The notes under the pieces: generated by a model
What the model saw: only the letters and a program-made list of their open reading frames with translations
What the model was told of the DNA's origin: nothing
The model's database searches: none
Translations under genes and position numbers: made by a program
Assembly (NCBI RefSeq): GCF_011455875.1
Contig: NZ_CP015031.1
Location: forward strand, 911,405-975,404
Reading direction: 5' to 3'
From: Basfia succiniciproducens
Lineage (GTDB): Bacteria; Pseudomonadota; Gammaproteobacteria; Enterobacterales; Pasteurellaceae
DNA length: 64,000 nt
In this document: piece by piece, positions 10,934-49,306 of the stretch
Layout: each line of letters opens with the position of its first letter
Position numbering within the stretch: position 1 is the first letter of the stretch

Positions 10934-11008
10934 TGGCTGGGGTACTAGGATTCGAACCTAGGAATGCTGAGATCAAAACCCAGTGCCTTACCGCTTGGCG
11001 ATACCCCA
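10934..11008 (-). tRNA. tRNA-Gln (anticodon TTG), copy 2
   Basis: 75 bases with encoded CCA. Acceptor TGGGGTA/TACCCCA, anticodon stem CTGGG/CTCAG with loop TTTTGAT, T-arm TAGGTTCGAATCCTA. Identical to the copy at 11053 over the full length as read. Last gene of the four-tRNA operon. Confidence 0.97.
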
Positions 11009-11052: not shown

Positions 11053-11127
11053 TGGCTGGGGTACTAGGATTCGAACCTAGGAATGCTGAGATCAAAACCC
11101 AGTGCCTTACCGCTTGGCGATACCCCA
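11053..11127 (-). tRNA. tRNA-Gln (anticodon TTG), copy 1
   Basis: 75 bases with encoded CCA, same sequence as the next copy; 44 bases separate the two. Equivalent to glnU/glnW of E. coli. Confidence 0.97.
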
Positions 11128-47287: not shown

Positions 47288-47384
47288 TCAATTTTTACTT
47301 AAATTACATCAATAAAAACAGAATAAAATTCTAATTTAATTAAAATTTTAGAATTTTATAAATTAAAAATAATAAAATATAAAA

Positions 47385-47413
47385 AAAATGCGACTTTATG
47401 TCGCATTTTATAA
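47385..47413. terminator. Terminator of the NhaC-family gene
   Basis: Stem AAATGCGAC / GTCGCATTT with a small loop and T runs on both strands; about 50 bases past the stop of the minus-strand transporter. Confidence 0.88.
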
Positions 47414-47462: not shown

Positions 47463-49001
47463 TTAACGTTTTTTAGTGATGAAAATCAGCAAAAATAACG
47501 CCATGCCCGTAGTGATAAAGCCAAATAATGGTGTTTCAGTAAAACCGACCACTAAATAACCCAGAATTGTGGCCGTGGCAACAAGTAAGGCATAAGGTAA
47601 TTGTGTCGTTACATGATCCATATGATTACATTTTGCCCCGGTCGACGACAAAATGGTGGTATCCGATACCGGAGAACAATGGTCTCCGCACACGGCTCCC
47701 GCCATTACGGCAGATAAACAAGGCAATAGTAATTCCGGAGCGGCATTAACCGCAATTGCCGCCGCTATCGGCAACATAATACCGAAGGTTCCCCAGCTGG
47801 TACCGGTGGAAAATGCCATCGCAGCGCCTAAAACAAATAATAAAGCCGGCAATAATGCGGGCGTTAAGTTGCCTGAAATCAAACTTGATAAATATTTACC
47901 GGTCTGCATATCGCCGACCACTTTGTTGATTGTCCAGGCAAAACATAAGATCAAAATTGCGCCTACCATAGATTTCATGCCTGCGATAACCGCTTTGGCA
48001 TAATTGCCGGAAGATAATTTTTTTGCCAATACAATCAAAATTGTGGAAATAAGAACCGCAGTCATACCACCGACAACTAAAGAAATTCCGACGGTTGTAT
48101 TCTCAAAAGCGCCTAATACGCTGAATTCTTTACCGTCAGCCAATAGTGCCTGATTACCGGTATGCATCATCATTGTAACAGTGCCGATAATCAATCCCAC
48201 AATCGGCAATACGAGATTTCTAACCTGCCCCTGAACTGCCGAATTAGTTTCTTGCACATTGTTGGCTTGTTCCATAGCTAATTTTTCATGATGCGCCATA
48301 GGCCCGATATCAAATGAAAAATAAGCGACGATAAACACCATAACAATAGAAAAAATCGCATAGAAATTCATCGCACTCATGGTCATAAAAGCGCCAATCG
48401 GCGTATAACCGGTAATAGAATGTTCGGCTAATAATCCCGCAACTAAAGTAATAATATAAGCCCCCCAGCTTGAAACGGGCATTAAAACGCACATCGGTGC
48501 CGCCGTGGAATCAAGAATATAGGCTAATTTCGGGCGGGATACATGGAATTTATCGGTAACGGGGCGTGCAATCGCACCTACCGCAAGGCTGTGGAAATAA
48601 TCGTCAATAAAGGTAATAAAGACTAAACACGCCGCCATAATTTTAGCGCCCCGACGGCCTTTAATACGTTTTTGCGCCCATTCCGCAAATGCCTGATTAC
48701 TACCGGAAACACTTAAAAGTGCGGTTAAAATTCCCAGCAATAATAAAAAAACAAGAATATTTACATTATTATCATTTAATACGAAATGGTTTTCTTCATC
48801 AAAATTAAAAATTAATGAAGTCACACTGTCAAATAAATAACTAACCCCTTGTGCGAGACTTCCGTTAGATAACATTAATGAACCGACAATGATCCCGACA
48901 CTTAACGAAAGCAATACTTTACGAGTAAAAATCGCTAATGTGAGGGCTAAAATCGGTGGTAGAATTGACCAAAGAGAAGTCGAAAAATCTGCAAGTTGCA
49001 T
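47463..49001 (-). CDS. lysW: NhaC-family transporter, probable lysine transporter under a lysine riboswitch
   Basis: 512 aa, about 11-12 helices. Na+/H+ antiporter NhaC superfamily: ITFIDDYFHSLAVGAIARPVTDKFHVSR, STAAPMCVLMPVSSWGAYI, FSTGTSWGTFGIMLPIA, VCGDHCSPVSDTTILSSTGAKCNHMDHV. Annotation as a sodium/proton antiporter is the default, but a lysine riboswitch in its leader argues for lysine uptake, as proposed for the NhaC-type LysW group from comparative genomics. Uptake signal at 48717. Monocistronic. Confidence 0.88.
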   Translation of the reverse strand: MQLADFSTSLWSILPPILALTLAIFTRKVLLSLSVGIIVGSLMLSNGSLAQGVSYLFDSVTSLIFNFDEENHFVLNDNNVNILVFLLLLGILTALLSVSGSNQAFAEWAQKRIKGRRGAKIMAACLVFITFIDDYFHSLAVGAIARPVTDKFHVSRPKLAYILDSTAAPMCVLMPVSSWGAYIITLVAGLLAEHSITGYTPIGAFMTMSAMNFYAIFSIVMVFIVAYFSFDIGPMAHHEKLAMEQANNVQETNSAVQGQVRNLVLPIVGLIIGTVTMMMHTGNQALLADGKEFSVLGAFENTTVGISLVVGGMTAVLISTILIVLAKKLSSGNYAKAVIAGMKSMVGAILILCFAWTINKVVGDMQTGKYLSSLISGNLTPALLPALLFVLGAAMAFSTGTSWGTFGIMLPIAAAIAVNAAPELLLPCLSAVMAGAVCGDHCSPVSDTTILSSTGAKCNHMDHVTTQLPYALLVATATILGYLVVGFTETPLFGFITTGMALFLLIFITKKR

Positions 49002-49004
49002 TGG

Positions 49005-49072
49005 TTTACCTAAAATAATATTTATTAGGAAGAGCTACTTAGATTAAATAATCAATGATTAAGGCAGGTAAA
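49005..49072 (-). promoter_or_regulatory. Expression platform: ribosome-site sequestering hairpin
   Basis: The ribosome site AGGTAAA (minus strand, 49005-49011), seven bases before the ATG, is perfectly complementary to TTTACCT (49066-49072) just 3' of the lysine aptamer. Between them lies GTAGCTC (49032-49038), which can pair with the aptamer's 3' P1 strand. This suggests translational control. Confidence 0.6.
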
Positions 49073-49089
49073 ATACAGAAAGAAACCGA

Positions 49090-49266
49090 CCCACGAGTAG
49101 CGCTCCATAGTTAATCAAAAATGACTATGGCAGTAACGTTCCTTTCGGTGACGTTACCAACCAGTTAAGATGACGCTTAACTGATTTCGGCAAATATTCC
49201 TTTCAATTTCCTTCATTGTTATCCACTCTGGAAAAATACTTATAATATTCGCACCTCTACATGTGT
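49090..49266 (-). ncRNA. Lysine riboswitch (L box)
   Basis: Minus-strand core elements in order: P1 5' GTAG then AGGTGCG (49250-49260 on the plus strand); TGCCGAA; hairpin CAGTTAAG/CTTAACTG; hairpin GTAACGT/ACGTTAC; hairpin CCATAGT/ACTATGG; and the 3' closing GGAGCGCTAC (49097-49106). This is the known lysine aptamer pattern (AGAGGNGC ... GCCGAAG ... GGAGNGCTA). It controls the NhaC-family gene that follows. Confidence 0.93.
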
Positions 49267-49277
49267 AGGGACTGTAA

Positions 49278-49306
49278 AGATTACAATAAGACAATGAAAT
49301 TGCCAA
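49278..49306 (-). promoter_or_regulatory. Candidate promoter of the riboswitch transcript
   Basis: -35 TTGGCA (49301-49306), 17-base spacer, weak -10 TAATCT (49278-49283), placing the start just before the aptamer. From here to 49546 the DNA is very AT-rich and must also hold the hns promoter, which I cannot place firmly. Confidence 0.45.

Follow-up and report, generated by a model that had tools for sequence, protein, structure and literature searches.

A lysine riboswitch ahead of lysW, a predicted lysine importer gene of Basfia succiniciproducens with relatives annotated as tet(35) in Vibrio

A lysine riboswitch lies ahead of lysW, a gene of the NhaC superfamily, in the window (the whole 64,000-nucleotide stretch of Basfia succiniciproducens DNA that was analysed). 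We consider it probable that this riboswitch is a translational OFF switch and that its target, LysW, is a lysine importer. The observations behind this explanation are the aptamer itself, its conservation with lysW, the complementarities within the leader, and the lack of both a terminator in the leader and a PF01276 decarboxylase in the genome. The pairing of lysine riboswitches with lysW was reportedly first proposed by Rodionov et al. in 2003. This association is already known, also within Pasteurellales, across which a lysine riboswitch upstream of lysW has been reported (PMC5584792). The Basfia locus is an ordinary, well-formed case of it, and its value is mainly for annotation: the closest curated model of the transporter is an antibiotic-resistance entry, Tet(35), and the Vibrio members of that entry share the lysine riboswitch.

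Aptamer

The window was scanned with the Rfam covariance model of the Lysine family (RF00168, gathering score 30 bits). The model matched positions 49267-49090 of the minus strand from its first to its last position (1-182 of 182; 135.4 bits, E 3.3e-36), and this element is with certainty a lysine riboswitch, as an earlier note on this DNA had claimed. No second lysine riboswitch was found in the genome (2,253,194 bp, one contig). The aptamer is located 89-266 bases upstream of the lysW start codon (position 49001) on the same strand, in agreement with the 90-260 bases on the minus strand given before, and the range 49005-49266 proposed for the whole element correctly takes in both the aptamer and the expression platform. 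All L-box core elements were found in the order described (GUAGAGGUGC, AGUA, GAAAGG, GCCGAA, CUGCCA, GGAGCGCUAC). The three hairpins described as perfect correspond to P3, P4 and P5; however, P3 (AAUCAGUUAAG/CUUAACUGGUU) is nearly rather than strictly perfect because it contains one G-U pair. The L2 and L3 loops contain AUGA and UCAU, respectively, which could form a kissing interaction. The aptamer presumably binds lysine. The positions of all features are collected in Table 1.

Table 1. Features of the lysW locus (window positions; all on the minus strand)
Feature	Position	Strand	Basis or remark
Putative promoter TTGGCA ... TTGTAATCT, weak consensus	49278..49306	-	Sequence reading
Lysine riboswitch aptamer, P1-P5, five-way junction	49090..49267	-	RF00168, 135.4 bits, full length
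P1 3' strand GCUACU	49096..49101	-	Partner GUAG (49260-49257) in P1, or antisequestor
Predicted antisequestor AGUAGC, 6 bp to P1 3' strand	49034..49039	-	Sequence; position and complementarity kept in relatives
Predicted Shine-Dalgarno (SD) sequestor hairpin CCUAA (49029-49025)/UUAGG (49013-49009), with SD AGG (49011-49009) inside	49009..49029	-	Sequence and folding
Alternative sequestor UUUACCU (49072-49066)/AGGUAAA (49011-49005), 7 bp	49005..49072	-	Sequence reading; data do not separate it from CCUAA/UUAGG
lysW, 512-aa NhaC-superfamily transporter, predicted lysine importer	47463..49001	-	PF03553; NCBIfam; IT-superfamily-like fold
Intrinsic terminator-like hairpin AAAUGCGACAUAAAGUCGCAUUUUUUUU, then U run, after lysW	47382..47406	-	Sequence reading

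Expression platform

In the window leader, the duplex between the P1 3' strand and the antisequestor has an energy of -8.4 kcal/mol, compared to -3.5 kcal/mol in shuffled sequences. The SD is almost completely buried, with an unpaired probability of 0.01 versus 0.22 for the shuffles. The antisequestor adjoins the sequestor arm and does not overlap with it. Because the SD is predicted to be sequestered downstream of the aptamer and the antisequestor would compete with P1, the platform fits a translational switch that would be turned OFF by lysine, as expected for an importer. A transcription-termination platform was ruled out, since the terminator scan revealed no terminator-like site in the leader. 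The putative promoter was read by eye from the letters and was not called by the consensus promoter scan.

In all 34 Pasteurellaceae taxa compared (one sequence per lineage), the leader has a segment 3' of the aptamer that is complementary to the P1 3' strand, and the duplex is more stable than the mean of its own dinucleotide shuffles in each of these leaders (mean -7.44 versus -3.91 kcal/mol), with the reservation that the leaders share descent and the Wilcoxon p-values are not those of independent tests. The common pairing in the leader alignment, present in most Pasteurellaceae, is CUACUG with CAGUAG or CAGUGG. Haemophilus and Rodentibacter have CUACGG with CCGU instead, a two-sided change from U-A to G-C relative to CUACUG/CAGU, and the pairing of Gallibacterium is displaced (CGAGUU with AACUCG, as read off the leader alignment). 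Across the group, most leaders fold with the SD inside a hairpin (mean unpaired probability 0.14 versus 0.20 in shuffles). The SD is open in the plain fold of the Haemophilus and Rodentibacter leaders, where sequestration was not seen. In Vibrio, the alternative helix comprises 9 bp (CUACUGUAG/CUGCAGUAG), and the antisequestor continues into the arm whose partner is the SD region (CUGCAGUAGAUCUC ... GAAGAUCAUG). When 68 leaders were folded at equilibrium with or without the P1 3' strand, SD accessibility was unchanged (p 0.44). This is the weak point of the OFF reading; switching may require folding during transcription, or helices outside the model.

Taken with the transporter, the leader suggests the following course of events. 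Plentiful lysine would bind in the five-way junction and lock P1; the antisequestor would then stay unpaired, the SD AGG would fold into its hairpin, and the transporter would not be made. When lysine is scarce, GCUACU of the P1 3' strand would pair with the antisequestor AGUAGC, which would disfavour the sequestor and allow the ribosome to bind. LysW, as a Na+- or H+-coupled importer, would bring lysine into the cell once the internal pool declines. The OFF direction of this scheme is inferred from the leader; lysine riboswitches are OFF switches in Bacillus subtilis and Escherichia coli (PMC11477304).

LysW protein

The product of lysW matched PF03553, the NhaC-type 'Na+/H+ antiporter family', with 289.7 bits, which bears out the family assignment made earlier for the downstream gene. 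Its score with the NhaC equivalog TIGR00931 was 38.2 bits, below the cut-off of 370. The top NCBIfam match was NF000013, Tet(35), with 369.4 bits, under the curated cut-off of 750, and a weak match to the ArcD arginine/ornithine antiporter (34 bits) was also obtained. The earlier warning that a default antiporter label would mislead is upheld, as even the closest curated label is that of a tetracycline efflux pump. The label 'Na+/H+ antiporter' is probably wrong for lysW.

The nearest relatives of LysW are those of Pasteurella bettyae (82% identity) and of Actinobacillus and Lonepinella (76%-78%), and in the tree it falls within a clade of riboswitch-controlled Pasteurellaceae LysW proteins. 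A PDB sequence search with LysW gave no match. A fold model of moderate confidence (pLDDT 80) has a layout like that of the ion-transporter superfamily, as in MleN, INDY, YdaH, and MtrF. The best fold matches, the NhaC-group malate/lactate antiporter MleN (9a59, an integrative model) and the INDY/AbgT folds, reached TM values of 0.4-0.55; they share only ~13% identity with LysW and transport other substrates. This match of a predicted fold gives the superfamily alone and is silent on the substrate.

Distribution of the riboswitch and lysW

The best 30 riboswitch matches in 296 genomes of the order were all located ahead of a lysW relative (53%-100% identity). Among 80 named loci of the Pasteurellaceae set that encode close relatives (L065-L144), most have the riboswitch. 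The Rfam scan found it absent from the lysW leaders of Actinobacillus sp. GY-402, A. porcinus, Cricetibacter, Spirabiliibacterium, Neisseria, Bergeriella, and others, and some of these riboswitch-less relatives, from Actinobacillus, are near the window protein in the tree. Six loci (L066, L068, L071, L109, L127, and L130) have no riboswitch in the ~200 bases before lysW; L073, also without a match, was not counted because its coordinates begin elsewhere than at the gene start. In three of the six (L066, L068, and L109), an element similar to TTGTAATCT is found 30-60 bases ahead of the start codon, as if the riboswitch had dropped out from between promoter and gene. Such loci may be natural losses of the switch. 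A lysine riboswitch of one Vibrio genome (L165:21-198) is located ahead of a distant NhaC-family gene; the product of this gene (499 residues) lies outside the LysW group and shares ~29% identity with the window protein.

The lysW systems of Pasteurellales, Vibrionales, and Alteromonadales (COG1757; PMC5584792) agree with that of Basfia in RNA class, transporter group, bacterial order, and layout, and nothing essential differs; the only particular of Basfia is that its sole lysine riboswitch is at lysW, with lysC lacking one. The genome carries lysA and two aspartokinase genes (a ThrA-sized frame of 819 residues and a 450-residue LysC), and no lysine riboswitch was detected in its lysC leader even with permissive filters. 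Ten other Pasteurellaceae genomes were found to have two lysine riboswitches: one is ahead of lysW, and the second is ahead of lysC in all ten. The Pasteurellaceae regulon thus appears to consist of lysW, with or without lysC. The E. coli lysC riboswitch, as treated in the part of PMC11477304 that cites Caron et al. 2012, shares with the switch predicted here the translational OFF logic, the hidden ribosome-binding site, and the lack of a terminator, but it controls an aspartokinase, whereas the Basfia riboswitch controls a transporter. The AA_permease family gave a single weak match in the genome (76 bits, 469 residues, arginine/ornithine-antiporter-like by appearance); hence, there is no obvious LysP.

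Relationship to Tet(35)

Tet(35) is the best NCBIfam match not only of the window protein but also of its relatives. In the 118 genomes of the genus of G021, taken as Vibrio, a Tet(35) match was found in 117, and it exceeded the curated cut-off in 18. The riboswitch profile was present at each of the best 30 Vibrio Tet(35)-like loci (L035-L064), the 18 above the cut-off among them, and the Rfam lysine riboswitch was detected at 20 of the 20 loci scanned among them, usually 109-117 bases ahead of the start codon. At L041 this distance is 312 bases, and the profile match ends early at an apparent insertion. The riboswitch at this locus (L041:3398-3555) scores lower (100 bits), and the insertion, well over 100 bases, is near P5. 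In most of the loci L035-L054, a histidine operon leader (RF00514) is located 3' of lysW.

The window protein is 54% identical to the Vibrio proteins above the cut-off, with which it shares the clade, the riboswitch, and the antisequestor, although it scores below that cut-off itself. In the tree, Tet(35) proteins nest among riboswitch-controlled LysW proteins; its deep branches, which involve distant NhaC proteins, are long and uncertain. The Tet(35) model differs in length: its 369 residues correspond to the C-terminal 369 of the 533-residue Vibrio LysW, starting at an internal Met (AAP-MCVIMPASSWGAY), so that ~164 N-terminal residues are left out. Among these is the region of a conserved DD pair, D133-D134 of the window protein.

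In a survey of 489 Vibrio genomes tet35 was ubiquitous, and the isolates tested were susceptible to tetracycline (PMC11921324); Norwegian V. alginolyticus likewise combined tet35 with tetracycline susceptibility (PMC7520990). In Vibrio campbellii LMB29, tet35 is on chromosome 1, with 99.7% identity to AF353562 (PMC5660062). Among the titles, abstracts, and passages returned by a literature search, none joined tet35 to a riboswitch or to lysine. Chromosomal tet(35) of Vibrio is probably lysW, that is, the gene for a riboswitch-controlled lysine importer whose database entry represents the C-terminal 369 residues from an internal Met, and its presence would then not predict tetracycline resistance. 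This reading would explain the mismatch between tet35 genotype and susceptible phenotype. Tet(35) proteins may nevertheless have a side activity on tetracycline. If Tet(35) imports lysine, a gene that resistome surveys score as a resistance determinant in almost all Vibrio encodes a core nutrient transporter.

Alternative functions of LysW

The main alternative is that LysW is a true Na+/H+ antiporter that serves pH or sodium homeostasis and is produced at low lysine, when proton-consuming lysine decarboxylation cannot help. The idea of an antiporter standing in for lysine decarboxylase is published and has been reviewed (PMC11477304 and PMC5584792), and it agrees with the name of PF03553 and the membership of LysW in the NhaC superfamily. 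However, PF01276 (ornithine/lysine/arginine decarboxylase) is absent from the genome and exceeded the cut-off in just 46 of the 140 genomes of the family, so complementing a decarboxylase cannot be the general rationale; G000, G074, and G150 have the riboswitch, and no PF01276 was found in them. With the low NhaC equivalog score and the position of the other Pasteurellaceae lysine riboswitch before lysC also against it, we regard antiport as unlikely. Amino acid transport, moreover, is not odd for this superfamily, since tyrosine T-boxes also control genes of the NhaC group (PMC2494555).

Tetracycline efflux of the Tet(35) kind would account for the top NCBIfam match, and in PMC11921324, with reference to the first report, tet35 is described as an energy-dependent efflux pump. 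The score, though, is half of the cut-off, the model covers just the C-terminal two thirds of the protein, lysine riboswitches precede the Vibrio Tet(35) genes themselves, and the isolates that carry them were susceptible, which leaves efflux a most improbable function for LysW. Export of lysine, or its exchange for another cation, would go with an ON switch; the OFF direction is itself deduced, and the ArcD match, weak as it is, points to an exchanger. SD sequestration and an antisequestor in competition with P1 nonetheless fit an OFF switch, and a riboswitch of the same class precedes lysC in the family, where repression is expected, so that export appears very unlikely. Lysine import is the simplest reading; it has been proposed for lysW in published work, and the present analysis strengthens it. 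LysW most likely imports lysine, presumably coupled to Na+ or H+.

Genomic surroundings

The hairpin and U run 3' of lysW suggest that the gene is monocistronic. Beyond it are ilvI, ilvH, and a gene for a Cra-type regulator. A gene of the H-NS/StpA type is oriented divergently. A plasmid search revealed no close copies of lysW, all matches being below 60% identity to the window protein. Elsewhere in the window, a cluster of four tRNA genes contains two of identical sequence and score (10937-11008 and 11056-11127), which lie 119 bases from each other.
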